Assembly: GCA_011046055.1 (NCBI GenBank)
Contig: DSBN01000053.1
Span: 1-12,353, forward strand
Length of the DNA: 12,353 bases
Source: Sediminispirochaeta sp.
GTDB taxonomy: Bacteria > Spirochaetota > Spirochaetia > DSM-16054 > Sediminispirochaetaceae
Direction of reading: 5' to 3'
Positions 1 to 12,353 of this stretch are shown here, piece after piece. Position numbers and translations under genes: made by a program. Each line of letters opens with the position of its first letter. Position 1 is the stretch's first letter. A model generated the notes under the pieces. It made no database searches. It saw only the letters and a list, made by a program, of their open reading frames with translations, and had not been told where the DNA came from.

Positions 1-1
1 C

Positions 2-457
2 CCTCTGGCCGCGGGCTATATCTCGAGGCGCACCGTGATCAAACGGCGCGGGGTCGAGTACTTTGAGCAGGTCTTTCTCAAAAAGTTCGACCACACTACC
101 ATCGGCGGCTTGCTGCTGACCCTGATCATCCTATTCTCCTTTCAGGGTGAGATTATTCTGAACAATCCCCTGCACATACTGCTGATCGCCGTCCCCCTAA
201 TCATTCAGACCTTTCTCATCTTCGGTATCGCCTATGGTTGGGCCAAACTGTGGAAGGTGCCCTACGACATAGCCGCTCCGGGGGCAATGATCGGAGCGAG
301 CAACTTTTTTGAGCTGGCGGTGGCGGTGGCGGTGAGTCTGTTCGGACTGCAGTCGGGTGCTGCGCTGGCAACGGTGGTGGGCGTACTGGTGGAAGTGCCG
401 ATCATGCTGAGCCTAGTGAAAATTGCGGTGGCCACCCGCGCTTCCTTTCAGGGATAA
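2..457 (+). CDS. acr3: Arsenite efflux permease Acr3, C-terminal part (5' truncated)
   Basis: This is an inner-membrane carrier that expels arsenite. The reading frame is open from base 2 and ends with TAA at 455-457, so only about the last 151 residues are present and the true start lies upstream. At least three hydrophobic helices are visible. The stretch GASNFFELAVAV is the hallmark of the Acr3 family; its Glu corresponds to the conserved acidic residue of the ninth helix that is needed for transport in characterised Acr3 proteins. The AVAVAV part is encoded by three tandem GGCGGT units at 316-333. The regulator arsR starts 4 bases after the stop and arsC follows, which confirms an arsenic operon. 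Assignment to Acr3 rather than to the unrelated ArsB permease rests on this motif and on the sequence around it. Confidence 0.93.
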   Translation, partial: PLAAGYISRRTVIKRRGVEYFEQVFLKKFDHTTIGGLLLTLIILFSFQGEIILNNPLHILLIAVPLIIQTFLIFGIAYGWAKLWKVPYDIAAPGAMIGASNFFELAVAVAVSLFGLQSGAALATVVGVLVEVPIMLSLVKIAVATRASFQG

Positions 458-461
458 AAAA

Positions 462-875
462 ATGCGTGATATTGTCGATGAGCTGAAAACCCTGGCCGAT
501 TTGAATCGTCTGCGGATCCTTTCGCTGATATGGGAAGGGGGAGACTTGTGCGGCTGCGAGGTCGAACGGATACTCGATATGAAACAGAGCAACACCTCAC
601 GCCAGCTGCAGCGCCTGCGGGCAGCCGGCTTTCTCCACAGCTATAAACAGGCTCAGTGGTCCCACTACCGTATAGCGGCTGCCCACATTGGGGAGGAGAG
701 CCTGCTGCGGCAAATTATTATATTGGCTCGAGCCTCGACGGAGGTCTACGACGCTGACCTCGATAGATTGCGCGACTACCGCGATCGCGGTTTCTCCTGC
801 CAGACCATCCACACCTGGGTTCCCTTTGACCCAAGCAATATATCCACACAATCGAGGAGCACACATGAGCATTAA
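462..875 (+). CDS. arsR: ArsR-family arsenite-responsive repressor
   Basis: This is a 137-residue winged-helix repressor that is expected to leave its operator when As(III) binds. The ATG at 462 is preferred because it follows the acr3 stop by 4 bases, has an AGGG about 8 bases upstream, and gives the normal ArsR N-terminus ([15 protein letters not shown]). The sensor motif DLCGCEV places Cys30 and Cys32 at the start of the recognition-helix region, the classic As(III) site. A third cysteine, Cys113, lies near the C-terminus and could be a third thiolate ligand. The recognition helix reads [18 protein letters not shown] (residues 41-58). The last codons overlap arsC by 11 bases. The regulator sits between permease and reductase rather than first in the operon, so the operator it binds is probably upstream of this window. 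Confidence 0.93.
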
Positions 876-1305
876 GAAAAAAAAGGTGCTGTTTATCTGC
901 ATCCACAACAGCGCTCGCAGCCAGATGGCCGAAACCTTTCTCAACGACCTGGGCGGAGAGTGGTTCCAGGCCGAGAGCGCCGGTCTCGAACCGGGCACCC
1001 TGAATCCCCTGGTGGTGCAGGTGATGGCCGAAGAGGGCTACGATATCTCCGGCAACTCCACCAACAGCGTGTTCGACTTCTACCAGCAGCAGCGGTCCTA
1101 CGACTTTGTGGTGGCGGTCTGCAGCAAGGAGGCCGAAGAGCGCTGCCCCATTTTCCCCGGAGCCCGCCGTCGGCTCCACTGGCCCTTCGACGACCCCTCA
1201 TCGATGGGCGGCAGCGAGCAGGAGCGCCTGGAGGCTACCCGCCGAATCCGCGACCAGATCAAGGCCAAGATCGGTGAGTTCATCGCCGAGGAGAAGTCCT
1301 CCTGA
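865..1305 (+). CDS. arsC: Arsenate reductase, low-molecular-weight phosphatase fold (thioredoxin-type)
   Basis: This 146-residue cytoplasmic enzyme reduces arsenate to arsenite, which Acr3 then exports. The start at 865 has a GAGGAG ribosome site at 854-859 and overlaps the end of arsR, suggesting translational coupling. The phosphatase-like P-loop is CIHNSARS (Cys12 to Arg18). The resolving cysteines of the thioredoxin-coupled class appear as Cys86 and Cys94 in [12 protein letters not shown], and the general-acid Asp region is HWPFDDPS (Asp109/Asp110). This pattern matches the Staphylococcus pI258/Bacillus ArsC class and not the glutaredoxin-dependent E. coli plasmid class. The gene ends 17 bases before the convergent stop of the ATPase gene. 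I see no strong terminator in that gap, so ars transcripts may run antisense into the ATPase gene. Confidence 0.93.
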
Positions 1306-1322
1306 CGAAAAATCCGTGGTTT

Positions 1323-2672
1323 TCAGGTCGATGGGCAGAGAGTTCGCACATACTGGGGCAGCTTTGCCGCATGGTAGTAGGGTATATTGAGGAGCAGTGA
1401 TGATTTTTTCTTCATCGTAGTGATGGTATTTACGGAATGAGCTCCGGCATACAGGCGCACCCCGCATCGCTCATCGCTCATGTCGAGAAACTGCATCAGT
1501 GATCGCAGCCTTCCGACGGCACCTGCCTTCACTTCCACCGGTATGATCTGACCGTCAACCAGAACAAGATAATCGACCTCCGCGCTGGACTGTTTTTTTT
1601 CCCGGACCCAATAGAGGTAGCCTACAAGTTCAGTGGGCGAAGAAGATCGTAGTTCCTGACCAACTATATGCTCGGCGAACAAGCCCTTACGGGCATCCCT
1701 CAAGTCGCGAATCGAAATGAGTTCTTCCTGTACGCCCATCGCATATGCGCAAAGCCCGGTATCGAGGAGGTGTAGACGCGGTTTTTTTCTTTTGTTCCTT
1801 TGCAGAGGCAAGCCCGTGGAAGTTAGGGGATATTCCACGGTACAGAGCATGGCTTTCTGCAGCGTCTCGAAGCTTTCCTTGACTTGGGTACTACCATAGG
1901 AGCTCCCCCCGTAGCCGTTGAACGTAAGCCTCTGCATCGGGTGGAAGAGCATAGTGGAAAAGACATGCCGAGCGATCGCTTTTTTCGACTCAGAGATCGG
2001 ATATTTCTCGATATCATCGGCGTACGATGTAATTAGGTCATGATAGACTTGCCGTACCCTTATCAGATCCCCGCTCTCCGCATAGGTCCTCACAGCCTCG
2101 GGCATCCCGCCGACCAGGGTATATCGGTGAAAAAGCTCCAGAAGTTTCTCATGGGCATAATCGGGTACCGGTACCTGTTGAAAGGCTTCCACAGCCTGGG
2201 TCTCCCCGAGTGCCAGGAGAAACTCCTCAAATGAGACCGGATGCATATACGCATAAGTGACCCGGCCTACCGGGAAAGCTCTCCTCACATCTACTGATTG
2301 TTCGAGCAGAGAGCCTGCGGCAACTATATGGTACTCCGGATATTCTTCATAGAGATATCGCAACAGATTGATTGCTCGGTCGGATCGCTGTATCTCATCA
2401 ATAAATATCAGTGTCTTACGTTCTTTCCGCACACCCCGCAGGAAGAATACCTCATCGACGACTTCGTGCAAGGGACGCTCATTGTAGAATAGTCTCAGAT
2501 CTTCGTACCGGTCGAGGTTTAAATGGATATATTGCGGGTAGTCCTCGGCAAACTTCAATACGGTGGTCGTCTTCCCGGTCTGTCGAGCCCCCCTGATCAC
2601 CAGAGGTTTCCGCACGGAACGTCCACCCCATTCACGAAGGTACCCTTCAAGCTTTCGTGGAAATACCTGCAT
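1323..2672 (-). CDS. AAA+ ATPase with C-terminal DUF4143 domain
   Basis: This 449-residue protein belongs to the large, poorly understood group of stand-alone bacterial and archaeal ATPases with an N-terminal P-loop domain and a C-terminal DUF4143 domain. Walker A is GARQTGKT (28-35), Walker B is LIFIDEIQ (88-95), and the sensor-like motif AAGSLLE lies at 118-124. The C-terminal half carries LLDTGLCAYAMG (302-313) and an EVDYLVLVDG...VEVKAG arrangement (365-384) that resembles a PD-(D/E)xK nuclease-like core, with Asp367, Glu380 and Lys382 as candidate residues. The ATG at 2670-2672 is preceded on its own strand by AAGG at 2677-2680. The gene stands alone between convergent arsC and the region 2673-3042. 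It has no obvious partner, and its physiological role is unknown. Such genes are often scattered or recently transferred, but nothing here proves transfer. Confidence 0.9.
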   Translation of the reverse strand: MQVFPRKLEGYLREWGGRSVRKPLVIRGARQTGKTTTVLKFAEDYPQYIHLNLDRYEDLRLFYNERPLHEVVDEVFFLRGVRKERKTLIFIDEIQRSDRAINLLRYLYEEYPEYHIVAAGSLLEQSVDVRRAFPVGRVTYAYMHPVSFEEFLLALGETQAVEAFQQVPVPDYAHEKLLELFHRYTLVGGMPEAVRTYAESGDLIRVRQVYHDLITSYADDIEKYPISESKKAIARHVFSTMLFHPMQRLTFNGYGGSSYGSTQVKESFETLQKAMLCTVEYPLTSTGLPLQRNKRKKPRLHLLDTGLCAYAMGVQEELISIRDLRDARKGLFAEHIVGQELRSSSPTELVGYLYWVREKKQSSAEVDYLVLVDGQIIPVEVKAGAVGRLRSLMQFLDMSDERCGVRLYAGAHSVNTITTMKKKSSLLLNIPYYHAAKLPQYVRTLCPST

Positions 2673-2676
2673 AAAC

Positions 2677-2792
2677 CTTATTTTATAGTAGCTTTATAAC
2701 AAAGTAAAGGTTAAATAGTGCAAATCCACATACAAAGTAAACGTTAAAAACCCGATCCGACAAAATGTCATTAAAAATAGAAGATTTGCACT
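2677..2792 (-). promoter_or_regulatory. Repeat-rich upstream region of the ATPase gene
   Basis: Directly upstream of the ATPase start the DNA is AT-rich and contains a 17-base direct repeat, ACAAAGTAAAGGTTAAA at 2699-2715 and ACAAAGTAAACGTTAAA at 2732-2748, with 16 of 17 bases identical and a 33-base period (about three helical turns). A perfect 10-base inverted repeat, AGTGCAAATC at 2717-2726 and GATTTGCACT at 2783-2792, brackets the second copy. On the gene strand each direct repeat contains TTTACT, a possible -35 element, but no single convincing -35/-10 pair could be chosen. The arrangement suggests a regulator binding tandem sites. The function is inferred. Confidence 0.45.
2699..2748. 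repeat. Pair of 17-base direct repeats, 33-base period
   Basis: The two copies are at 2699-2715 and 2732-2748 and differ at one position (G/C at the eleventh base). There are only two copies, so this is neither a CRISPR array nor a typical iteron origin. The position in front of the ATPase start makes operator use the simplest reading. Confidence 0.75.
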
Positions 2793-2833
2793 CACAACAG
2801 GATACCCCCGGTACCCGATACTCTTTTTTGCCG

Positions 2834-2851
2834 TTAGGTAGTTCTACCTAA
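2834..2851. repeat. Perfect palindromic element TTAGGTAG-TT-CTACCTAA
   Basis: Two 8-base arms (2834-2841 and 2844-2851) are exact reverse complements around a TT centre. A two-base centre is too short for a stable RNA loop, so a dimeric DNA-binding protein site is more likely than a terminator. It lies in the gene-free stretch between the ATPase promoter and the 3' end of the flavoprotein gene. Its target gene is not clear. The nearest plus-strand candidate is the tiny frame at 2870-2974. Confidence 0.5.
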
Positions 2852-2869
2852 TTTCAGTTTTCTCGTAAA

Positions 2870-2974
2870 TTGAGTAAAACGGCGGATGATATAGGGTCTC
2901 TGTATTCCTCACCCTTGCCTGAGTTGAGGCGGAAGGAGAAGCTGGTGGGCTTAGCCGAAGAATGGAGTTGGTGA
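2870..2974 (+). other. Possible 34-codon reading frame or gene remnant
   Basis: A frame opening with TTG at 2870 and ending with TGA at 2972-2974 encodes a charged peptide that includes LPELRRKEKLVGLAEEW, which looks like real protein (an amphipathic helix) rather than random translation. There is no clear ribosome binding site before the TTG. It could be a small protein, the N-terminal stub of a decayed gene, or chance. The palindrome at 2834-2851 lies just upstream and the hairpin at 2977-3024 just downstream, which fits a short transcription unit. I do not recognise the peptide. Confidence 0.2.
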
Positions 2975-2976
2975 TT

Positions 2977-3031
2977 CTGGCTCAGAGATACTAATACATC
3001 GCAGCATTAGAATCTCCGCACCAGTGTTTTT
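2977..3031 (+). terminator. Terminator-like hairpin followed by a T run
   Basis: GAGATACTAAT (2985-2995) pairs with ATTAGAATCTC (3006-3016) with one mismatch across a 10-base loop. An outer CTGG (2977-2980) pairs with CCAG (3021-3024). Five T residues follow at 3027-3031 on the plus strand, which is the orientation of an intrinsic terminator for a plus-strand transcript. On the minus strand the same hairpin lies just past the flavoprotein stop codon but lacks a downstream T run, so there it could only act as a weak terminator or a 3'-end stabiliser. Confidence 0.4.
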
Positions 3032-3042
3032 ATCACCCCACC

Positions 3043-4473
3043 TCAGCGATCGGCCAGCAGGTCGGTAGGCCTCTGCCCGTCCATAAGCTCATGGTAGGTC
3101 TCGTAGATTCGTTCTGTCAGTTTTAGACGCAGTTCGGTGAGCTGGGCGGAAGCTTTCTTGTACTCCTGCCGCAGCGCGGAGATACTCTCCTTCCGCGTGT
3201 TCTCTATCTTTGCCGCCAGGTTCCGTTCGTATGCGTTTTTTGCCACTCGGAAGCGCTCCTCAGCCGAGAGATACTCCTCTCTCAGCTGCCGGATACGGGA
3301 GATAACCTCCGCCGCTCTCTCTTTCATATCGTTGAACAGAGTTTGGAGGTAGCCGGCTCGCAGCTCTTCCATCAGTTCGGCGGTCGGTACAATGGCTTTG
3401 ACCCGGTACGCGTTGCTGCCGACGAAGGCAAATCCCCGGGAGAGCCTCCCTTTGCGCGCGTTGTTGAGGGCAATGGAGATACAGTAGTTCGCCTCATCGG
3501 CTTGACAGCCGGCAAGACACTGCCAGGGGCATTTGAAGGGCTGTTTCTCCCCGGAAGCTTGCTCCAAAAACTCGTTGAGGATCGCCCTTCCCGGCAGTCC
3601 TACGGGACTCTTGATGATTCCGATGTCCTCTTTTCGCGCGTTGACGTAAGCCTCCTTGAAGGCCCTGTCGGCATCGCACTCCTCGGTGGCGACAAACCGG
3701 GTCCCCATTTGCACCGCCTGGGCGCCGGACTTCATGATGTTGTAGATATCCTCTCCGGTGAAAATCCCACCCGCGGCGATGACCGGAATCTCCCGCTGGA
3801 ACTCCTCTTGATAAGGAGCTACAGTCTCCCGAACTTCCGGCACGACCTTCTCTATTCTGTAAGCCGGATCGCCGATCTCATCCTCCGGCACGCCGAGGTG
3901 GCCGCCGGCCTCAGGCCCCTCTACCACTATGGCGTCGGGAACGTCCTTGTAGATACGCTTCCACATCTTGAAAATAAGATCCGCCGCCCGCTGCGAACTG
4001 ACAATGGGGGCGACCTTGATATTGTTTTTTCGTATCTCGTCGACGGGGATGTTCTTTATCGGCAGACCGGCGCCCATTATTATGAGGTCCACCCTCTCTT
4101 CGATCGCGGTCAGCAGCAGCTCGTGGAAGTCGTTCAGCGCCACCATGATATTAACCCCGATGATGCCTTTGGTTCGCGATCGAGCTTTTCTAATCTCCTT
4201 GCGCAGCGCGCGGATATTGGCCGCCCGCCCGTCCTTGAAGTAGTCCGCCTCGATCATACCAACGCCGTTGGCGGCGATCACCCCTATTCCCCCGTTCTCC
4301 GCGACGGACGATGCCAGACCGGACAGCGATATACCGACCCCCATGCCCCCCTGCACTATCGGTACCCGGGCGACGAGGTCGCCGATCCTCAGCTTTGGCA
4401 TTTCAAACTTGGGTAGATTGATCTGTATCGATTTTATCAAAGATATAAAACTCTCGTAGGTAAGCTCAGTCAT
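3043..4473 (-). CDS. Nitronate monooxygenase/FabK-like FMN-dependent TIM-barrel protein with coiled-coil tail
   Basis: This 476-residue protein belongs to the 2-nitropropane dioxygenase/nitronate monooxygenase superfamily, which also contains FabK-type enoyl-ACP reductases. FMN- and phosphate-binding motifs are visible: QGGMGVG (41-47), GPEAGGHLG (186-194), AAGGIFTG (233-240) and GAQAVQMGTRF (250-260). After the barrel comes a cysteine cluster, Cys315, Cys319, Cys323 and Cys331, in CPWQCLAGCQ...YC. The last 90 or so residues are highly charged and heptad-like, probably a coiled coil, an extension that minimal family members lack. The start at 4471-4473 is chosen because GGAGGG lies about 8 bases upstream; a further in-frame ATG at 4599 would lie upstream of the predicted transcription start. 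The gene stands alone and diverges from the AOR operon. The substrate cannot be assigned: nitronate, enoyl thioester or another electron acceptor are all possible. Confidence 0.85.
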   Translation of the reverse strand: MTELTYESFISLIKSIQINLPKFEMPKLRIGDLVARVPIVQGGMGVGISLSGLASSVAENGGIGVIAANGVGMIEADYFKDGRAANIRALRKEIRKARSRTKGIIGVNIMVALNDFHELLLTAIEERVDLIIMGAGLPIKNIPVDEIRKNNIKVAPIVSSQRAADLIFKMWKRIYKDVPDAIVVEGPEAGGHLGVPEDEIGDPAYRIEKVVPEVRETVAPYQEEFQREIPVIAAGGIFTGEDIYNIMKSGAQAVQMGTRFVATEECDADRAFKEAYVNARKEDIGIIKSPVGLPGRAILNEFLEQASGEKQPFKCPWQCLAGCQADEANYCISIALNNARKGRLSRGFAFVGSNAYRVKAIVPTAELMEELRAGYLQTLFNDMKERAAEVISRIRQLREEYLSAEERFRVAKNAYERNLAAKIENTRKESISALRQEYKKASAQLTELRLKLTERIYETYHELMDGQRPTDLLADR

Positions 4474-4588
4474 AATGGACCCTCCATCGGCATTTTTTCG
4501 GTTGCGGGCCGATACCCTGCATAGTAAACCTTTTTTCCGATTTTGAATACCGGATTGAAAGACTTTTCCTCCACTTTTGAAAAGCTGG

Positions 4589-4618
4589 ATTATTACCACT
4601 GTTTTTTTGCACTATCAA
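4589..4618 (-). promoter_or_regulatory. Sigma70-like promoter for the flavoprotein gene
   Basis: Read on the minus strand, TTGATA (4613-4618) is followed after 18 bases by AATAAT (4589-4594). Each matches the consensus at five of six positions. A start near 4582 would give a leader of about 110 bases before the ATG at 4473, and would exclude the upstream in-frame ATG at 4599 as the start codon. Confidence 0.5.
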
Positions 4619-4810
4619 TCTTTTTTTTAGATATAATTTCTTTTATATTACATATTTTTCACATTTGTTGCGCCATTTAGAATTTTGTTGTTACACTAAT
4701 GAATTCTCTGACACCTAATCACAATTATGCTAATATGATATATCAGTAAATTTTTATAAATTGCAGATATTTTTTATATAAAAAAAGTTACATACTTTTA
4801 TATGTCCGAA
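4619..4810. promoter_or_regulatory. AT-rich divergent control region upstream of the AOR operon
   Basis: This stretch between the divergent flavoprotein promoter and the first AOR-operon gene is strikingly AT-rich, with runs such as a T-tract near 4620 and TATATAAAAAAA near 4777. It must hold the promoter for the seven-gene operon, but so many A/T hexamers fit a -10 that none can be picked with confidence. TATAAA at 4777-4782 is one candidate. A 10-base palindrome TGATATATCA lies at 4736-4745. No convincing FNR or CRP box was found. The composition would suit binding by a nucleoid protein. No gene is seen here. Confidence 0.45.
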
Positions 4811-4822
4811 GAGGAGGGCTTC

Positions 4823-5497
4823 ATGTCAGATGAACGGAATACGGTTCTCGATACATCGATGAATCGTCGTGATTTTTTGAAGTTGACCGGTATGAGCGCC
4901 GTTGGTGTATCCGCCTTGTCATGGCTTCTACCAGGCTGTACTTCGAACAAGGAAGACGTAGCAGTTTTTGAGACAGCTTCCGGGGTTCTGATTCACGAAT
5001 CTCCCCGTTGTACCGGTTGTCTGCTCTGCGAAAACGCATGTACCGGCGTAAACGACGGAAAATCCAGCCAGTACCTTGCCCGGGTCAAAGTGAGTTCTGG
5101 ATTGGCTTACGGCTCCAACGGAGTGCGAGGAGAATGGTGGAAAACCGACGGCGCCATGGGCAACTTCAGGTTGGATGCGGAACTCTGCCGCCAGTGTGAA
5201 CAGCCCGCCTGTGCTCTGGCCTGCCCGGAGAATGCGATCTTTGAAGAACCGAAGGTAGGCGCCCGGGAGATCGACCCGGAGAAATGCGTGGGCTGCGGAA
5301 CCTGCGAGAGAGCATGTCCCTGGGGAATACCCAAGATCGATCCGGAGACTAACGTAGCCACCAAATGTGTGCTCTGTCACGGCTACTCAGCCTGCGTATC
5401 GATATGTCCGACCGGAGCTCTCCACTACGTGAGAGTTGGGATGAAGCGACTCGGAAGTACCGGGAACACTTCCTCACCGAAAAAATATAATCAGTAA
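4823..5497 (+). CDS. Tat-signal ferredoxin-like subunit with four [4Fe-4S] clusters
   Basis: This 224-residue electron-transfer protein is the probable partner of the AOR encoded next. The ATG at 4823 is chosen over the one at 4802 because GAGGAGGG (4811-4818) sits 4 bases before it. A twin-arginine signal is clear: NRRDFLKLTG (14-23), followed by a short hydrophobic stretch ending in LLPGC (Cys39), which could be an atypical lipoprotein site. Sixteen cysteines form four cluster motifs in the DmsB/HycB-like order: Cys63/66/69/73, Cys122/125/130/134, Cys155/158/161/165 and Cys182/185/191/195. This resembles the ferredoxin-like proteins of the E. coli ydh cluster (YdhY/YdhX). The signal implies folding and cluster insertion in the cytoplasm, then export by Tat. 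The AOR gene starts 21 bases after the stop. No quinone-reacting membrane anchor is encoded nearby. Confidence 0.92.
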   Translation: MSDERNTVLDTSMNRRDFLKLTGMSAVGVSALSWLLPGCTSNKEDVAVFETASGVLIHESPRCTGCLLCENACTGVNDGKSSQYLARVKVSSGLAYGSNGVRGEWWKTDGAMGNFRLDAELCRQCEQPACALACPENAIFEEPKVGAREIDPEKCVGCGTCERACPWGIPKIDPETNVATKCVLCHGYSACVSICPTGALHYVRVGMKRLGSTGNTSSPKKYNQ

Positions 5498-5518
5498 ATA
5501 GAGACAAGGAGAGTACAT

Positions 5519-7624
5519 ATGGCAATACAAGGTGGATGGGCAGGAAAAATCCTGCGAGTCAACTTGACTGAAGGTAAAATTTCCCACGAGGATACGGAAA
5601 AATACAAAAACTATATCGGAGGAATGGGCTTTGGTTACAAGGTGATATGGGATGAGGTCCTCGCCGGAACCAAAGCATATGACGAGGCCAATAAAATCGT
5701 CTTTGGAGTCGGACCGCTCACCGGTTCCGGGGCTCTCTGTTCAGGTCGTACCAACATCACCAGCCTGCTGGCTTCCAACCCCTTCCACGGAGTCAGCGAC
5801 AGCCACATGGGCGGGCACTTCGCCGTTGAATTGAAATACGCCGGCTACAACGGAATCATTATCGAGGGTAAGAGTGAACGGCCCGTCTGGCTCAGGATCG
5901 AAGACGACGATGTGAGCATCGAAGACGCCTCCCTGTACTGGGGACACGGCACCTTCAAAACCATCACCGGAGTCACCGCGGTCATGGGCGGCGACTCCCA
6001 AGTGGCGGCCATAGGACAGGCCGGAGAGAACATGGTCAACCTCTCGGTCATCCGCACCGGCCCAAGCCACTCCGCGGGAGGACACGGCGGAGTCATGGGC
6101 TCGAAAAACCTCAAAGCCATCGGGGTCAAGGGTACCGGCGCCGTGCATATCAATATGGAAAACATGGAGTGGTACAATCTCAACAAGTTCACCATGAGCA
6201 TCATTGGAGCGAACAACCAGCACGTAGTCCCCCGCACTCCCCAACCCTGGGCCGAACACGACCATCCCGGCAGCCGTTGGACCGCCAAGAAGGATCTCTA
6301 CTGGGAAAAAGCCGACCCTCCAATCGAAACTGGTATCTGTACACCCGAACAGACCAACAAGGTCGGGTACAGAACCATGAAAGCCATGCTCGACTTGGGG
6401 GCTAACGGGCCAAAATACACCGTGCGAATGGGCGGCTGCGCCAGCTGTCCGATTCGATGTCACTCCCACGTGAACGTACCACAGCTGAAAAATTACGGAG
6501 CTGATCCCAATGTGGCCAACACCTGCATGGGATTCTTCGGTCCTTTTAGCGTGATGTTCAAAGGGGTCAACATCGAAGGCGAACACAAGGACGACGCCAC
6601 GGTCATAGCCCGCGCTCTGGGCTCCCATGTCGCCGACGAGTACGGAGTGTGGTGCAACTACGGTCAGCTCTCTCGAGACCTCAAATGGACCTATGAGAGG
6701 GGCATTCTACGACGGGTCATTCCCGCCGCTGAGTACAACTCCATCCGCTGGGACCTCCTGAAGAAGGGAGACCCCGGATTCTTCGAGGACTTCTACCGCC
6801 GGATAGCGATGAAAGAGGGAGAACTGAGCCGGCTCGGTGAAGGTGCCTACTGGATCGATCGTCACTGGAACCTCGGCGAAGAGTACTGGACCGACAAAAA
6901 TAACAAACTGTGGACAAAAATCGGATATCCCGTTCATCACGCCAACGAATCAAATGGGCAGGTCGGCGCCTTGATCAGCTCCATGTTCAACCGTGACGCC
7001 CAGTGTCACACCCACCAGAACTTCCTCGGCAGCGGTCTGCCGACCAAGCTGCAGCAGGATGTAGCCGAAGAGCTGTGGGGGGACCGAAATGCAATCGACG
7101 AGCCCGCCAACTACCGCCCCATGAGCAGGGGGAAGGCCAGGTTCGAGAAATGGAGCATCGTGAGAAACGTACTGCACGACTCTCTAACCCTCTGCAATTG
7201 GATGTGGCCCCTCGCCCTGAGTCCGCTCAAGGAGAGAAACTACCGCGGCGACACCGCTCTGGAGGAGAAGTACTTCACCGCCGTCACCGGTGAAGAGATG
7301 AGTGAAGAGGAATTGGATCTCGCGGCGGAGAGAATTTTCACCCTCCACCGAGCCTTGACGGTCAAACAGATGGGCACCGTAAATATGCGAGAAGAACACG
7401 ACCGGCTCACCGGATGGCAGTTCGATATGGATCCGGACAAGGAAGCCTTTACCGCCGGGACCATCAAGCTCGACCGTGATGATTTTGAAAAAGGCTTGAC
7501 CATGCTCTACGAAGAGATGGGCTGGGATCCTCAAACAGGCGCACCCACCAGAGAGACCTTGGAAAAGCTTCAGCTCAAATACGTGGCTGATGAATTGGAG
7601 ACTCTGGATCTGTTGCCGGCATAA
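5519..7624 (+). CDS. ydhV: Aldehyde:ferredoxin oxidoreductase family protein, YdhV type
   Basis: This 701-residue protein has the length and, as far as I can recall it, close sequence similarity to E. coli YdhV (about 700 residues) throughout, for example near the N-terminus (GGMGFGYK, GPLTGSGA) and at HRALTVKQM. Family members bind a bis-pyranopterin Mo or W cofactor and one [4Fe-4S] cluster; E. coli YdhV has been reported to hold a bis-Mo-MPT cofactor. The cluster ligands are visible as Cys307, Cys310 and Cys314 (CASCPIRC), with the distal Cys559 in LTLCNWMWP. The ATG at 5519 follows AAGGAGAG (5506-5513) by 5 bases. No signal peptide is present, so the protein is either cytoplasmic or carried out by the Tat-signal FeS subunit. 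The substrate is unknown even for E. coli YdhV; aldehyde or carboxylic acid chemistry is a family-level expectation only. Whether Mo or W is used cannot be read from the sequence. Confidence 0.93.
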   Translation: MAIQGGWAGKILRVNLTEGKISHEDTEKYKNYIGGMGFGYKVIWDEVLAGTKAYDEANKIVFGVGPLTGSGALCSGRTNITSLLASNPFHGVSDSHMGGHFAVELKYAGYNGIIIEGKSERPVWLRIEDDDVSIEDASLYWGHGTFKTITGVTAVMGGDSQVAAIGQAGENMVNLSVIRTGPSHSAGGHGGVMGSKNLKAIGVKGTGAVHINMENMEWYNLNKFTMSIIGANNQHVVPRTPQPWAEHDHPGSRWTAKKDLYWEKADPPIETGICTPEQTNKVGYRTMKAMLDLGANGPKYTVRMGGCASCPIRCHSHVNVPQLKNYGADPNVANTCMGFFGPFSVMFKGVNIEGEHKDDATVIARALGSHVADEYGVWCNYGQLSRDLKWTYERGILRRVIPAAEYNSIRWDLLKKGDPGFFEDFYRRIAMKEGELSRLGEGAYWIDRHWNLGEEYWTDKNNKLWTKIGYPVHHANESNGQVGALISSMFNRDAQCHTHQNFLGSGLPTKLQQDVAEELWGDRNAIDEPANYRPMSRGKARFEKWSIVRNVLHDSLTLCNWMWPLALSPLKERNYRGDTALEEKYFTAVTGEEMSEEELDLAAERIFTLHRALTVKQMGTVNMREEHDRLTGWQFDMDPDKEAFTAGTIKLDRDDFEKGLTMLYEEMGWDPQTGAPTRETLEKLQLKYVADELETLDLLPA

Positions 7625-7632
7625 AGAGCACA

Positions 7633-8124
7633 ATGGAAAACGAAAACACTGTATCCGCGTTGGATCAGATCAAAGAAAAAAGCGCTGCCGGATTCGTCGT
7701 GCACGAATCCGGCCTCAGCGCTGAAATCACCGAAGAAGAGCGCTCGATGGTCGGAGAAATCAAGGGCGAAAAAGGCGTCTATTTTTTTGACCCAAACACA
7801 ATGGCGCCCCGTTACGCCTCAATAATGGTGAACCTCGAAGAGAAGAACTACCTCGCTCTGGCCGCCGAGACAATACGCAACGACAGCCGCACCTATCCGC
7901 GGACCACCCCTTTGGCCCTCTTCAGCGAGTCTTCTTTCTCCTTCACCCAGGAGACCGTGGAGATAATTTTGCGGAGCTTTCAGGACAAACCGGGGTTTGA
8001 GGACATCGAGAAATGCGGAGCCTCAAATGGCGCAATGCATCTTTTTTCAAAAAAATATCTCGATCCCGCACAGGCTGAATACCTCTGTGAATGGGATGAA
8101 GTGGGACGGGCGGAGAACCAATGA
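7633..8124 (+). CDS. Unrecognised 163-residue protein of the AOR operon
   Basis: I do not recognise this family. The gene starts 8 bases after the AOR stop and its TGA overlaps the ATG of the next gene (ATGA), so it is firmly inside the operon. It is acidic and soluble-looking, with no signal peptide and no membrane segment. The N-terminal third is charged (VHESGLSAEITEEERSMVGE); the middle and C-terminal parts look like a compact alpha/beta fold. Two cysteines occur near the C-terminus (in EKCGASNG and YLCEWDE) and no metal motif is evident. Its place between an AOR and an FdhD-like gene suggests an assembly chaperone or small subunit, perhaps the counterpart of YdhW in the E. coli ydh operon. 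That link rests on position only. Confidence 0.8.
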   Translation: MENENTVSALDQIKEKSAAGFVVHESGLSAEITEEERSMVGEIKGEKGVYFFDPNTMAPRYASIMVNLEEKNYLALAAETIRNDSRTYPRTTPLALFSESSFSFTQETVEIILRSFQDKPGFEDIEKCGASNGAMHLFSKKYLDPAQAEYLCEWDEVGRAENQ

Positions 8125-8798
8125 TACGGACACGCAGCTATACCCCCACGGTGGATGAGGAGCAGGTCAGACTGAGAATAGCCGAGGAGGTCTACAACGA
8201 CTTTTTCTGCACTCCCCAGGAGCTCACCGAACTCTGCATCGGACACCTCTACTTACGCGGAAAAATCCACAGCGCCGATGATGTTGTGCTTGTCCAAACG
8301 GAGACGAAGAACCCCATCGAAATGGTGGCCACAATTCTGCCGAACCAGAGCCTGGGAACAAACCCCGCGGCGACGGATAATACCGACTTCGAGGTTCCAG
8401 GGATTGATACCCTGAGAGAAGCTGCCGCGGAGATGTTCTCCATGGCGGAGATCTATAAAAAATGGGGCGGAATTCACTGCTCAGCACTTTTATACGAAAA
8501 TGAGATTGTCGCCTTCAAGGAAGATATCGGACGACACAACGCGATGGACAAGGTCATCGGCCAAGCCTTGATCGACAATTATGACATCTCCAAGCTCATC
8601 TACTTGACCAGCGGACGGGTAAATGCTGAAATAATAAGCAAGGCAGCGACGGCGGGATTGCCGCTGATTGTTTCACGTAGTATTGTTTCCACCATCGCCC
8701 TCGAGACCGCCCGTCGACTGGAGATAGGGCTGATCGGAAGGATCGAATGGGAAGAGCCTATCGTATATGAAGAAGCACAACATAGAATGCAGCGATAG
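8121..8798 (+). CDS. fdhD: FdhD-like accessory protein lacking the catalytic CxxC motif
   Basis: This 225-residue protein is homologous to FdhD, which in E. coli passes sulfur from IscS to the bis-MGD cofactor before it enters formate dehydrogenase. Family signatures are clear: FFCTPQELTELCIGHLY (28-44), GGIHCSALLYE (116-126), EDIGRHNAMDKVIG (134-147), LTSGR (162-166) and IVSRS (183-187). However, the segment between about residue 60 and 105, where FdhD normally has the sulfur-carrying CxxC loop, contains no cysteine. The only cysteines are Cys30, Cys39 and Cys120. The protein is also shorter than E. coli FdhD (277 residues). The ATG overlaps the previous stop, with GGAGAA about 4 bases upstream. 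In this operon it may bind or deliver the AOR pterin cofactor rather than sulfurate it. The symbol denotes the family, not proven function. Confidence 0.85.
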   Translation: MIRTRSYTPTVDEEQVRLRIAEEVYNDFFCTPQELTELCIGHLYLRGKIHSADDVVLVQTETKNPIEMVATILPNQSLGTNPAATDNTDFEVPGIDTLREAAAEMFSMAEIYKKWGGIHCSALLYENEIVAFKEDIGRHNAMDKVIGQALIDNYDISKLIYLTSGRVNAEIISKAATAGLPLIVSRSIVSTIALETARRLEIGLIGRIEWEEPIVYEEAQHRMQR

Positions 8799-8814
8799 CT
8801 ATAACGGCGAAGTT

Positions 8815-9537
8815 ATGGCTTTGCGGCAACACCTGCGTGAGCTACGGCAGGTCCTGGTGGTCTCGGCCATGAGCGTGCTCCTGTTCGCCGTGGCGATGTA
8901 CAACTATTTCGACCCGGTCATCGCTTTTCTCTATTCCCCCTTCGCCAATATCCCCCAAATAGTGACGGGGAACACTCTCTTCGCCCATCACGTCTTTGAA
9001 GGCTTTCTCACCAGGATAAAAATCAGTGTCTTTGTCGGCTTGATCTTCTCTTCCCCGATCCTGATTTTTCTGCTTATTCGTTTCATTTTTCCCGCCCTCA
9101 CCAAACGGGAGAAACGCATCACTCTGTGGACGCTGATATCCAGCGCGGCCTTGGTGTTTGGAGGCTTTTATTACGGGTACTACTCGATACTGCCGATTGC
9201 CATCGACTTTTTTACCAGCGCCGGATTTTTTCCTGACCATATCGGATTGATGCTGAACTACGAGAGAAACATCATGTACGTGTTCCGTTTCCTCTTTTTG
9301 GTCCTGGTGACGTTCCAGCTGCCGGTTTTGATGGTGATTCTGATGATGAGCAATATCATTCACCGTGGCACGCTCTTTCGAATGGGGCGCTTCGTTGTTA
9401 TTGGACTTTTTCTCTTCTCCGCGATTATCACTCCTCCGGATTTTGTGAGCCAGGTGATGATCGCCCTACCGATGATCGTGCTGTATTATTTTGCGCTCTT
9501 GGTTGCCGTCATTTTCGGCTTTGGAAAGGAGGCGTGA
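8815..9537 (+). CDS. tatC: Twin-arginine translocase subunit TatC
   Basis: This is a 240-residue inner-membrane protein with six predicted helices, the receptor for twin-arginine signals. The ATG at 8815 gives the typical N-terminus MALRQHLRELRQ. An in-frame ATG at 8767 would add 16 polar residues and overlap the FdhD-like gene by 32 bases, and cannot be excluded. Key features are HLRELR in the N-terminal cytoplasmic segment, FPALTKREKR with the conserved Glu (Glu103 in E. coli) before the third helix, FQLPV in place of the E. coli FEVPV (Gln at the Glu170 position, a natural variant in some TatC proteins), and ITPPDFVSQ near residues 203-211. The gene is followed directly by tatB-like and tatA genes. 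Location in the AOR operon points to export of the Tat-signal FeS subunit. Confidence 0.93.
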   Translation: MALRQHLRELRQVLVVSAMSVLLFAVAMYNYFDPVIAFLYSPFANIPQIVTGNTLFAHHVFEGFLTRIKISVFVGLIFSSPILIFLLIRFIFPALTKREKRITLWTLISSAALVFGGFYYGYYSILPIAIDFFTSAGFFPDHIGLMLNYERNIMYVFRFLFLVLVTFQLPVLMVILMMSNIIHRGTLFRMGRFVVIGLFLFSAIITPPDFVSQVMIALPMIVLYYFALLVAVIFGFGKEA

Positions 9538-9875
9538 TGCCGGGACTTGGGATCTCCGAACTGCTGCTCATTGCCTTGCTGATTCTCCTTTTTGTCCGTA
9601 CCGAGGACCTGCCCAATATAATGCGTTTTCTCGGCCGAACCTGGGCCAAAGCCTATCGTTACTACCTTCTGTTCAAGCAGGAGATGAGAAAAATGGAGAA
9701 ATCCATGGGTATCGAGGAGGAGATGAAGGATATTCGATCAATTAGCGCCCGGCTCAATAGTGAAATCGCCTCTTTCAACAAGGATTTGAGGAGTGAAAAT
9801 AAAGAAAGAGATTATGCAAAAGAGATAGAAAAACAAACCGAAGAAATACCGAATAATTCTGATACAAAGGAGTAA
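9537..9875 (+). CDS. tatB: TatB-like (TatA/B family) translocase subunit
   Basis: This 112-residue protein has the TatA/B layout: a short N-terminus (MPGLGISELLL), one membrane helix to about residue 21, a hinge, an amphipathic helix (LPNIMRFLGRTWAKAYRYY), and a long charged tail rich in Glu and Lys. The Glu at residue 8 matches the conserved polar residue of TatB (ISELLLI). The usual hinge GPExLP is altered to RTEDLP. The ATG shares its A with the tatC stop (TGATG) and follows AAGGAGG (9526-9532) by 4 bases. The upstream GTG at 9534 is too close to that site. The length, tail and order before a TatA favour TatB, but short TatB and long TatA proteins are hard to separate by eye. Confidence 0.82.
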   Translation: MPGLGISELLLIALLILLFVRTEDLPNIMRFLGRTWAKAYRYYLLFKQEMRKMEKSMGIEEEMKDIRSISARLNSEIASFNKDLRSENKERDYAKEIEKQTEEIPNNSDTKE

Positions 9876-9878
9876 ATC

Positions 9879-10071
9879 ATGTTAGGTACAACGGAAATTG
9901 TAGTTATCGGCGGAGTAGTGGTACTACTTTTCGGCGCCAGCGCCATACCCAAGTTCGCCAAAAAACCTCGGCAAAGCAAAAAAAGAGTTCCGTGACGGAA
10001 TGGCCGAAGAGGTCAAACAGGGCGAAGAAACTCAAGAAGGTGATTCGTCAAAAAAAAAGGAAGACAAATAG
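9879..10071 (+). pseudogene. tatA: tatA with a one-base frameshift in an A run
   Basis: The gene begins with a strong AAAGGAG site (9866-9872) and encodes MLGTTEIVVIGG...LLFGASAIPKFAK, a textbook TatA membrane helix, hinge and start of the amphipathic helix. At the run of six A residues at 9960-9965 the frame breaks and reaches TGA at 9993-9995 after 38 codons. Removing one A restores NLGKAKKEFRDGMAEEVKQ and a charged tail to TAG at 10069-10071, the expected length of about 63 residues. The downstream frame is fully TatA-like, so decay is recent, or the extra A is a sequencing error in a homopolymer. As written, the product would keep the membrane helix but lose most of the amphipathic helix. 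It is the last gene of the operon, 3 bases after tatB. Confidence 0.85.
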
Positions 10072-10096
10072 TATAGCCCAACATCTTTTTACAAGA

Positions 10097-10130
10097 ACAT
10101 ATGCTGCCCTCGGATGAGGGAAGCATATGT
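10097..10130 (+). terminator. Strong hairpin after the AOR/tat operon
   Basis: ACATATGCT (10097-10105) pairs perfectly with AGCATATGT (10122-10130). Inside, after one G/A mismatch, CCCTC (10107-10111) pairs with GAGGG (10116-10120) around a four-base GGAT loop. The stem of 14 pairs is stable, but the sequence after it (GTCTTCCCCCTCTTC) is pyrimidine-rich rather than a T run, so it may be an imperfect intrinsic terminator or a 3'-end protecting hairpin. It lies 25 bases past the tatA stop. Confidence 0.6.
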
Positions 10131-10306
10131 GTCTTCCCCCTCTTCGCGTGGGACTATCTCGTAACGCCTAAAACACTCCCTCCTCGACCAATTCACATGC
10201 CCGTATAAATATTCATTATTATTGACACATAGAGGCCGCTGCTGTATCTTTATACCCTGAATATTTAACGATCGATCAAACGCAGCATGAAACGGGAGAA
10301 TGGACC
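10131..10306 (+). promoter_or_regulatory. Intergenic region with sigma70-like promoter for putP
   Basis: TTGACA at 10222-10227 matches the -35 consensus perfectly and is followed after 17 bases by TATCTT at 10245-10250, a moderate -10. An AT-rich stretch lies just upstream of the -35 (10204-10221). Transcription from about 10257 would give a 50-base leader before the putP ATG. No reading frame or other structure stands out in this stretch. Confidence 0.6.
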
Positions 10307-11764
10307 ATGCTTTATCTACAATTCGGCCTCTACCTGGCGCTGATGCTCGCCGTGGGCTACTATTACATGAAACGCACCAGCAACAACAACGACTTCATCA
10401 TCGGCGGCAGAACGATGGGGCCGGTCACCACCGCCATCTCCGCCGGAGCTTCCGACATGTCCAGCTGGCTTTTGCTCGGGCTCCCCGGAGCGGTGTTCGC
10501 CTCTGGGCTGGTGGAGGGGGTCTGGATATCCCTGGGACTCCTGCTGGGAGCCTACTTCAACTGGCTGATAGTAGCCGAACGCCTGCGGACCATGACGGAA
10601 AAACTGGACGCGGTCACTCTCCCCTCCTTTATCGCCAAACGCTCCGACGACGAGACGGGGATTCTGAAGACCGTATCTACCCTGGTCATTCTCTTTTTCT
10701 TCACCCTCTACGTGGCCTCTGGCTTGAAAGGAGGGACCCTGCTTTTCGCCCACACCTTCGGGGCTAGTGAAGCGACGGCCATGGCCATCACTACCTTGGT
10801 GGTGGTCTCCTACACCTTTCTCGGAGGATACATGGCCGTCTGCTGGACCGACCTGCTGCAGGGACTCTTGATGCTGGGAGCTCTGATCTTCAGCTCACTC
10901 CTCGGCTTTTTCGCCGTCTCCGGCTCCGGGGCGCAGATCAGCGCCGCCAATCCGGCAGCCTTCAAGTTCACTACCAGCTTCATCACCGGGGCGAGCCTCA
11001 TGGCCTGGGGCTTCGGTTACTTCGGCCAACCCCACATCCTGGCCCGCTTCATCGGTATCAGAAACGCCGAATCGGTCAAAAGCGCGCGCCGGGTCGGCAT
11101 CACCTGGATGGCCCTCAGCCTCGTCCTGGCGACCATGATCGGTATCGTGGGGATCGGCTACAACGCCCTTTTCCCCTTGGAAGGGGTCGCCGGGCCGGGA
11201 GGAGACAGCGAGAGGATATTCCTGGCCCTGACCAGCGCCCTCTTTCATCCCCTGTTCAGCGGATTCGTTCTGGCGGCGGTTCTGGCGGCGGTCATGTCCA
11301 CGGCGGACTCCCAATTGCTCGTCCTCACCTCATCCCTCACTTCGGACATCCCCTATATCGCCAAGATGGATGAGAAAAAAAAGGAGCTCATCAGCCGGTT
11401 GGGGGTGGTCGGTTTCGCCTTCATCGCCTACCTTATCAGTGCCAACGACAACGGGACCATCCTGGCCATGGTGGGCTACGCCTGGGGAGGCTTCGGCGCC
11501 GCCTTCGGACCGGTGGTGATACTCGCTCTGACCTGGCGGAGAATGACCAGGTGGGGCGCCCTGGCGGGTATGCTGGTCGGGTCTATCACCATCTACGTGG
11601 TGAAAAACTACATCTCCATCGAAGGGGAGTACTTCTACGAGCTTCTGCCCGGCTTTATCTTGGCCTTCCTGGCTATCATCGTAGTCAGTCTGCTCGGGGA
11701 CAAACCCTCTCACCAGGGGCTGGAGGTTTTTGATGAGACGGAGAGCCTGGTAAGGGCAAAATAG
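10307..11764 (+). CDS. putP: Sodium/proline-type symporter (SSS family, PutP)
   Basis: This is a 485-residue inner-membrane sodium/solute symporter with 12-13 hydrophobic helices, close in length to E. coli PutP (502). Diagnostic segments are ISAGASDMSSWLLLGLPGA (residues 44-62), with Ala48, Asp50 and Met51 at the sites of E. coli Ala53, Asp55 and Met56; GYFGQPHILARFIG in the middle; and LAAVMSTADSQLL, where Ser331 and Thr332 match the sodium-binding Ser340 and Thr341. The ATG at 10307 follows GGGAGA (10294-10299) by 7 bases; a 10300 ATG lies in another frame. The gene has its own promoter and no proline-catabolic neighbour in the window. L-proline is the most likely substrate on family similarity, for nutrition or osmoprotection. 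Confidence 0.9.
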   Translation: MLYLQFGLYLALMLAVGYYYMKRTSNNNDFIIGGRTMGPVTTAISAGASDMSSWLLLGLPGAVFASGLVEGVWISLGLLLGAYFNWLIVAERLRTMTEKLDAVTLPSFIAKRSDDETGILKTVSTLVILFFFTLYVASGLKGGTLLFAHTFGASEATAMAITTLVVVSYTFLGGYMAVCWTDLLQGLLMLGALIFSSLLGFFAVSGSGAQISAANPAAFKFTTSFITGASLMAWGFGYFGQPHILARFIGIRNAESVKSARRVGITWMALSLVLATMIGIVGIGYNALFPLEGVAGPGGDSERIFLALTSALFHPLFSGFVLAAVLAAVMSTADSQLLVLTSSLTSDIPYIAKMDEKKKELISRLGVVGFAFIAYLISANDNGTILAMVGYAWGGFGAAFGPVVILALTWRRMTRWGALAGMLVGSITIYVVKNYISIEGEYFYELLPGFILAFLAIIVVSLLGDKPSHQGLEVFDETESLVRAK

Positions 11765-11790
11765 TAATAGCCGCGAAATCCCGGACAGAT

Positions 11791-11838
11791 ACCTTGACAT
11801 TCAAGCTTTTTACAATTACCTTGATACTCAAGGTAATT
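11791..11838 (+). promoter_or_regulatory. Tandem inverted-repeat operators overlapping the marR promoter
   Basis: The main site has perfect 11-base arms, AATTACCTTGA (11814-11824) and TCAAGGTAATT (11828-11838), around TAC. A second, shorter copy lies 27 bases upstream, ACCTTGA (11791-11797), CAT, TCAAGCT (11801-11807), with one arm mismatch. The upstream copy contains the -35 TTGACA (11794-11799); the downstream copy covers the -10 position 17 bases later (TACCTT, 11817-11822) and an AAGG ribosome site (11830-11833). The core CTTGA-N3-TCAAG resembles sites of MarR-family regulators such as FabT. Autorepression by the adjacent MarR protein is the simplest inference. Confidence 0.75.
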
Positions 11839-11842
11839 TTCA

Positions 11843-12304
11843 ATGGAACGAAAGCAACAGAAACACGATGAACGCCTGGAAGAGTACTCGAGGGCGCTGA
11901 CCGAGTTCTTCGATCGTCTGAATTCCTGGGAGCAGAGCGTAGTATCGGACACCGGCGTCTCCCTGGCCCAAATGCACCTGATCGAAGTGATCGGCAACCG
12001 CGGGCGGATGAGAATGAAGGAGCTCGCCCAGCTCCTCGGGGTGACCACCGGTACCCTCACGGTGATGGTGCATCGGCTGGCGGAGAGGGACTACCTGATT
12101 CGACTCAAGGATGAGCAGGACCGACGCTCCTACTTCGTGGATCTGAGCGAAAAAGGAAAGGCCGAGTATCACCATCACCACCACATGCACTTCCACCTCG
12201 TTGAAGGAATTGTACACACTCTTGGCGAAAGAGAATCCGAGCAGTTCTTTGCCCATTTGAAAAAGCTGCAAGACGCATTAATTATAGGAGTATTGAATGA
12301 GTGA
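11843..12304 (+). CDS. MarR-family transcriptional regulator with a histidine-rich segment
   Basis: This 153-residue protein has the MarR layout: N-terminal dimerisation helix, winged helix-turn-helix (MRMKELAQLLGVTTGTLTVMVHRLAERDYL, residues 56-85; helix-turn-helix about 58-80), the wing RLKDEQDRRSYFVDLSEKG (87-105), then C-terminal dimerisation helices. The wing motif DRRSYFVDLSEKG is typical of the family. Residues 110-118 are HHHHHMHFH, at the start of the helix that in zinc-responsive relatives such as AdcR carries metal ligands, so metal sensing is possible but unproven. The gene follows the tandem operators directly, with only four bases between the operator and the ATG, and its last 8 bases overlap the next gene. 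The regulated genes are therefore itself and the operon running off the window; the ligand is unknown. Confidence 0.9.
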   Translation: MERKQQKHDERLEEYSRALTEFFDRLNSWEQSVVSDTGVSLAQMHLIEVIGNRGRMRMKELAQLLGVTTGTLTVMVHRLAERDYLIRLKDEQDRRSYFVDLSEKGKAEYHHHHHMHFHLVEGIVHTLGERESEQFFAHLKKLQDALIIGVLNE

Positions 12305-12353
12305 ACGAATATGCAATCAGCACTGGGTAACGGGACAAAATAATAAACAAGGG
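12297..12353 (+). CDS. Start of a gene coupled to marR (3' part outside window)
   Basis: An ATG at 12297 follows AGGAG (12286-12290) by 6 bases and opens a frame of 19 codons that is still open at the window end. It overlaps the marR stop by 8 bases, the usual sign of translational coupling. The visible N-terminus, MSERICNQHWVTGQ, is polar, with no signal peptide, and is not recognisable. It is probably the target or effector gene controlled by the MarR regulator. Confidence 0.6.
   Translation, partial: MSERICNQHWVTGQNNKQG

Follow-up and report, generated by a model that had tools for sequence, protein, structure and literature searches.

The locus described here raises the question of why the genes of a YdhV-type enzyme of the aldehyde:ferredoxin oxidoreductase (AOR) family should be followed directly by genes of the twin-arginine translocation (Tat) system. 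It belongs to Sediminispirochaeta sp. and lies on contig C19 (DSBN01000053.1) of the metagenome assembly G000 (GCA_011046055.1; 2.29 Mb in 400 contigs, 68% complete), of which the bases 1–12353 were analysed as one stretch of 12,353 nucleotides, hereafter the window. Its part 4823–10071 holds seven coding units, all on the plus strand, beginning with a YdhY-type Fe-S subunit that bears a Tat signal and continuing with YdhV, YdhW, FdhD-like protein, TatC, TatB-like protein and TatA, the frame of the last one being broken (Table 1). The answer favoured here, with a probability of about 0.68, is that the operon makes a Class V WOR of the YdhV–YdhY type together with the Tat translocon that would export it, YdhV crossing the membrane as a hitchhiker. 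The features read directly from the sequences are the gene order, the restriction of the Tat signal to the Fe-S subunit, the occurrence of just one tatC in the genome as assembled, a conserved linkage and the presence of two Tat lineages. It should be pointed out that a paper from June 2026 (PMC13328260) defines the Class V, i.e. YdhV-type, WORs by a small subunit that has a Tat signal, transmembrane segments or both, so that the central idea of the initial annotation of this DNA—export of an AOR complex by a dedicated route—is partly in print already.

The identity of the catalytic subunit, as given in that annotation, is confirmed by the match to the YdhV equivalog NF007354 (1107.9 bits, cut-off 868), its closest named proteins coming from metagenome-assembled genomes of Spirochaetia and Spirochaetaceae (83% and 81% identity, respectively). 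The residues Cys307, Cys310, Cys314, Cys559 and Cys336 are kept in all 48 YdhV sequences aligned; a cysteine in the column of Cys336 is also present in three of nine other AORs, so this contrast is weak. For the YdhV clade, PMC12096430 describes Cys336 as a metal ligand and gives no known reaction.

Concerning the Fe-S subunit, its best NCBIfam model is PRK09898 (171 bits, under the cut-off of 213), and we take the protein to be YdhY, the model length of 208 and the place ahead of ydhV being in agreement. The protein contains 17 cysteines, which would fit four [4Fe-4S] clusters. The RRDFLK signal noticed in the initial annotation scores 20 bits with TIGR01409 (cut-off 16.7) and 18.4 bits, under the cut-off of 22.7, with PF10518; it is the sole TIGR01409 match over the cut-off in the G000 assembly, the two weaker ones below it being found on contig C4. 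Among the 43 YdhY proteins examined, the RR motif is present in 34 (33 by script plus L023, where RR was seen in the sequence), and in three (L036, L148 and L152, of which L148 runs to a contig edge) no Tat motif was seen. A lipobox-like xx[GAS]C closes the signal in 21 of the 43 overall and in nine of the ten spirochaete loci. The statement that no membrane anchor is present was therefore too strong: a YdhY anchor is possible, and the lipobox-like cysteine suggests a membrane-associated enzyme facing the periplasm. In the enterobacterial YdhY proteins (L030, L031, L032, L039, L041 and L043), a Tat-like signal has Leu for the second Arg and LFGC is retained; in L041 the ydhV frame is split in three pieces.

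Folded cofactor enzymes require Tat, and the sequence of events may be envisaged as follows. YdhV would fold in the cytoplasm and gain its bis-pyranopterin Mo/W cofactor and [4Fe-4S] cluster, assisted by the FdhD-like protein and perhaps by YdhW. The cofactor-loaded YdhV would then bind the YdhY subunit, whose RR signal would bring the folded pair to the operon-encoded TatCBA, with YdhV carried across as a hitchhiker. Once the pair is outside, the cysteine that closes the YdhY signal may receive a lipid and thereby tether the complex to the periplasmic face of the inner membrane, where it would exchange electrons with a partner and a substrate.

The two putative assistants deserve separate comments. 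The FdhD-like identity proposed at the outset holds (PF02634, 147.7 bits, cut-off 27.2), with TIGR00129 staying under its cut-off (125.8 bits against 140.9). That the operon gene is simply the ordinary FdhD of the genome was dropped, since a second FdhD is encoded on contig C269 and the operon FdhDs of the window, L120 and L121 group in a clade apart (100/99) in a weakly resolved tree with long branches and few supported forks. YdhW scores 112 bits with NF007411, under the cut-off of 203; its relatives show internal duplication, and it is predicted to consist of two modules, the C-terminal one modelled as winged-helix-like. TorD/NarJ chaperones have an all-helical fold, and the idea of YdhW as a chaperone of that kind was given up in view of the modelled C-terminal half. 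Searches for solved relatives of YdhW gave none by profile at E 1 and none by Foldseek at E 0.001, and no TorD/NarJ chain was present among the structural matches listed.

The linkage of ydhV with tat was followed in a sample of 392 Spirochaetota genomes (YdhV called at E 1e-100, all over the cut-off). YdhV is present in nine and tatC in 125 of them, the association having a hypergeometric p of 6e-4, uncorrected for relatedness. All nine YdhV genomes carry tat genes in the operon, eight of them with tatC, which follows ydhV on its strand at a distance of 1.2 to 1.8 kb. The tat genes come directly after ydhVW-fdhD, or after ydhVW in G002 and G003, where fdhD was not detected. In the ninth genome, G357, tatA stands after fdhD, then the contig of 6,620 bases ends, and tatC was not found in that genome. 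In a sample of 398 genomes of Bacillota—the phylum of G393 (Anaerosolibacter)—YdhV was found in 13 (12 over the cut-off), all with tatC, vs 218 of 398 overall (hypergeometric p 3.4e-4, likewise uncorrected for relatedness); tatC is near ydhV in four of the 13, namely G393, G497, G690 and G481, the last with a distant YdhV. The linkage thus holds across spirochaete families and in some Bacillota. Lone tatA genes, with no tatC in the locus, accompany YdhV genes in L025 and L027. As stated in the initial annotation for the E. coli cluster, none of six enterobacterial ydh loci has a tatC match within about 8 kb, nor any tat match nearby. In the genus of the window itself, the genome G001 (94% complete) lacks a YdhV over the cut-off as well as tatC and any Tat signal at E 0.05; here the package therefore comes whole or not at all.

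The slot behind the client genes is, as judged from the trees, occupied by two unrelated Tat lineages. Most linked operons have TatA–TatC after fdhD (L023, L024, L044, L040, L117, L118, L119, L142 and L143), and L122 with its relative L008 has two TatA genes and then TatC after ydhW, fdhD not being detected there. The order TatC–TatB–TatA after fdhD is found in the window, L120 (G376) and L121 (G352). In a TatC tree of 69 rows, these three are united in one clade (100/94), which is nested in a nine-member spirochaetal group (100/99), separate from the TatA–TatC type. A single origin of all operon TatCs is rejected by the approximately unbiased test (p 2.7e-9) contrasting 13 operon rows with 56 others, the 13 leaving aside L042, where tat is divergent and upstream, and L153, with the distant YdhV. 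In the 48-row YdhV tree, restricted to YdhV-type sequences, the TatCBA-bearing YdhVs fall into a single clade (100/100) belonging to a group of 31 rows (95/80), the other tatC-linked members of which carry TatA–TatC; the group also includes 10 rows labelled as having no linked tatC. It should be noted that L153 (G481), with its tatC about 3 kb off, is located outside this group and is labelled 'no' in the tree. The simplest reading is that TatA–TatC would have been captured first and later replaced by TatC–TatB–TatA in the spirochaete lineage of the window, the client genes being unchanged; alternatively, there may have been two independent tat captures, since the deep forks are poorly resolved.

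A wider view is offered by the class of the window, Spirochaetia, of which 20 genomes with tatC (22 loci) were scanned with the Tat-signal model at E 0.05. Seventeen of the 23 signals detected lie within 6 kb of tatC, vs 0.11 expected at random positions, and they comprise six YdhY and 11 other clients; in the five tatC-less genomes of the class no Tat signal was detected. When 20 of the 22 tatC neighbourhoods were searched simply for RR, with matches inside TatC and multi-pass proteins excluded by eye, a client-like gene was found in 17, i.e. in 19 of 22 loci when the window and G002 are included; none was found by this search at G066 and G380, an RK variant being present at G266. Two tatC loci occur in G352 and likewise in G376, and each of these loci is accompanied by one signal. 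A family scan covering a single RR protein per locus at ten non-YdhV loci, the second client of G376 and the second RR genes of four loci being left out, identified a molybdopterin oxidoreductase (G234), a ferredoxin-type Fe-S protein (G248), C_GCAxxG_C_C proteins (G263 and G365), DUF362 proteins (G274, G332 and G344), an aldo/keto reductase with Fe-S motifs (G301) and flavoproteins (G386 and the second locus of G352). The tat cassettes look private to one redox client. A bolder view is put forward tentatively, its chances seeming somewhat below even: Tat in Spirochaetia would not be a housekeeping system, each cassette being instead a private, co-inherited exporter for one redox client, and translocase and client would recombine as modules, as in the exchange of the ancestral TatA–TatC of the YdhV operon for the unrelated TatC–TatB–TatA and in the two cassettes of G352 and G376, each beside its own client.

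Several tatC neighbourhoods of the class are worth recording in their own right. Across L104–L116, tat stands beside DUF362, C_GCAxxG_C_C, FAD/FMN, molybdopterin and aldo/keto reductase proteins. In L110 (G332; 3870–9284), a different AOR-family protein (579 amino acids, 99 bits to YdhV) is positioned directly upstream of TatA–TatC, and a DUF362 protein bearing an RR signal comes next. FdhD–TatA–TatC of the YdhV-operon type is present in L113 (G380; 4622–6765), and TatA–TatC alone, of the same type, in L103 (G066), neither YdhV nor a Tat client being found nearby in either case; these two are possibly leftovers of a lost operon.

Several observations weigh against export of the YdhV complex by a translocon of its own, and they are given here together with the explanations they would favour. 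Two of them concern the anchor: the spirochaete lipobox forms—LPGC, TLGC, ALGC and FPGC—are non-canonical, and one of the ten spirochaete YdhY loci lacks a lipobox-like cysteine. Others concern the linkage. A scan of public genomes, from which the best 80 YdhV loci were kept, gave two further spirochaete loci; the contig of L026 ends inside fdhD and is uninformative in this respect, and L029 (G399) is a true exception, with YdhY–YdhV–YdhW and no tat nearby, the TatA–TatC–TatB locus of G399 being on contig C100, where no neighbouring Tat client was found. In eight of the 13 Bacillota YdhV genomes no tatC was found within the stretch fetched (up to about 6 kb on each side, less at contig ends), so adjacency is not required everywhere; in the remaining one, G636, the contig is only 5.4 kb long.

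The best of the alternatives, though unlikely, is that only YdhY is exported, or is held by an uncleaved signal, with YdhV staying cytoplasmic and the pair not being partners across the membrane. No signal peptide was seen in YdhV, and, according to PMC13328260, the recombinant large subunit CsWOR41L of Cetobacterium somerae was purified without the S subunit. Moreover, YdhY has RL instead of RR in six of six enterobacterial proteins, in which the YdhV–YdhY neighbourhood is retained. In enterobacteria, however, there is another Fe-S protein, YdhX, which shows TRRKF or SRRKF in five of five inspected; a YdhY-type gene adjoins ydhV across the YdhV loci surveyed (uninformative for L040, the contig of which begins inside ydhV); and exporting a redox subunit without its catalytic partner would make little sense next to private tat genes.

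It is rather improbable that the tat genes are the general Tat system of the genome, placed by chance beside one of many substrates. Since a single tatC was found, any other client would have to depend on it; at 68% completeness, further tat genes or clients could be missing from G000. The Tat-signal scan is insensitive, having missed the RR-bearing YdhY of G323 and G345, and six of the 23 class signals lie away from tatC (two in G301, two in G345, and single ones in G234 and G248). Against chance stand the clustering of the 17 other signals around tatC, the paired loci of G352 and G376, and the persistence of the linkage across two Tat lineages. A search for a second tat locus, which would have pointed to general use, found neither another tatC nor another match to the TatA/B/E family (E 0.1) in the assembly as it stands; together with the conserved linkage, this supports dedicated export of a YdhV-type complex.

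As for the translocon of the window itself, TatC is full-length (TIGR00945, 149.2 bits, cut-off 132.7; PF00902 positions 1–208). The TatB-like protein scores 34.6 bits with TIGR01410, under the cut-off of 56.5, and has no Pfam match; homologues occupy the same operon place in L120 and L121. The 'whole tatCBA set' described initially is not what the assembly contains: the frame of the N-terminal half of tatA stops at 9995, the remainder being read in the other frame, with the switch at an A-run. The close relatives P0163, P0165 and P0166 have tatA intact in a single frame, and both halves from the window match them closely. A programmed frameshift is less likely than an error of assembly or a recent change, and it was dropped because, despite the A-run at the switch, the relatives carry a plain open frame. 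That the system is decaying, with tatA truly broken and the translocon non-functional, is very improbable: the frame change, the lack of any other TatA/B/E match in G000 and the missing cysteine loop of FdhD would fit it, but the remaining six operon genes are all open, the close match of both tatA halves to intact relatives suggests a sequencing or assembly slip or a very recent change, and the loop—missing also in L040 and L042, the other aligned operon FdhDs having at least one cysteine there—is likewise lost in L120 and L121, whose TatA is intact.

Among known systems, the closest is the Class V WOR of clade 41 from C. somerae, CsWOR41 (PMC13328260), which shares with the operon of the window the YdhV-type large subunit, the small subunit with a Tat signal, a third small gene, and FdhD and tat genes nearby (TatAE, TatC and FdhD); no activity was observed there on 46 aldehydes. 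It differs in that the tat genes of the window are part of one tight operon and of the TatC–TatB–TatA type, and in its flanks, with TupABC upstream in C. somerae vs a nitronate monooxygenase-like gene on the other strand and putP in the window. Spirochaetes are not named in the taxon list of that paper, and a search of the open-access literature, subscription papers lying outside it, found no report dealing with tat genes in the YdhV operons of spirochaetes. Of the interpretation offered initially, the dedicated export is supported, whereas an AOR with a Tat partner is not unprecedented, as PMC13328260 describes such enzymes. The E. coli ydhYVWXUT cluster has orthologous YdhY, YdhV and YdhW in the order Y–V–W; the enterobacterial loci are unlike the window in having no fdhD or tat match in the cluster, in the presence of YdhX with RR, and in RL instead of RR in YdhY. 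For gammaproteobacterial clusters, membrane and cytochrome subunits are reported in PMC13328260. The autonomous Tat system of Bacillus subtilis, PhoD with TatAd–TatCd (PMC3827258), is alike in that the translocase genes adjoin the substrate gene; PhoD is, however, a single enzyme under phosphate control, whereas the client here would be a multi-subunit Mo/W-FeS enzyme with the signal on the partner only. Finally, BamB of the class II benzoyl-CoA reductase (4z3w) belongs to the AOR family, and YdhV matches the 4z3w sequence over residues 8–239. BamB, which is cytoplasmic, has other partner subunits and another reaction. The active-site Cys ligand is common to the BamB and YdhV clades, according to PMC12096430.

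Table 1 Features of the ydhV–tat operon in the window
Feature	Position	Strand	Basis
YdhY/WorS-type Fe-S subunit; NRRDFLK Tat signal and lipobox-like LPGC	4823..5497	+	Family and signal profiles
YdhV (AOR/WOR large subunit)	5519..7624	+	Family profile, conserved Cys
YdhW homologue, 163 aa	7633..8124	+	Family profile, structure model
FdhD-like protein, loop cysteines missing	8121..8798	+	Family profile, alignment
TatC	8767..9537	+	Family profile, tree
TatB-like protein	9537..9875	+	Weak profile match, homologues in relatives
tatA, interrupted near 9960-9965; N-half frame 9879, C-half frame 9880	9879..10071	+	Frame reading, relatives
AT-rich leader	4600..4822		Base composition
Hairpin 3' of tatA, strong, T-run absent	10093..10135	+	Folding energy

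The tight packing of the seven genes, noted initially, is real, neighbouring genes being separated by 21, 8 or 3 bases or overlapping by 4, 32 or 1, and the Fe-S and 163-residue genes, left unnamed then, are YdhY and YdhW. The AT-rich control region holds as composition (GC 0.32–0.33 at 4500–4899), and the strong hairpin has a folding energy of −23.8 kcal/mol (z −4.4), with no T-run following. Promoter-like sites in the whole window (11 vs 8.5, sd 3.0, in shuffles) and terminator-like sites (18 vs 11.8, sd 3.8) are not clearly above chance, so neither a promoter nor an intrinsic terminator is claimed. Outside the operon, 35–1305 resembles, by reading alone, an arsenic resistance group (permease end, ArsR-like and ArsC-like); 3046–4599 on the minus strand encodes a nitronate monooxygenase/FabK-like protein, the C-terminal extension of which weakly matches TPR_MLP1_2; and 10307–12304 covers a PutP-type sodium/proline symporter and, after it, a MarR-family regulator.

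The novelty lies in the pattern seen among spirochaetes, i.e. a near-constant linkage, mostly one client per Tat cassette, and one operon slot occupied by unrelated translocases of two kinds; the filling of this slot from two lineages, and the presence of a redox client next to the majority of the other tat loci of the class, go beyond the initial annotation. The linkage directs the search for the substrate of YdhV outside the cytoplasmic membrane. A translocase apparently serving one client, and differing between lineages in the same slot, amounts to a natural experiment on the matching of Tat and client, and genomes with two cassettes, such as G352, are suited to a direct test of cross-talk.

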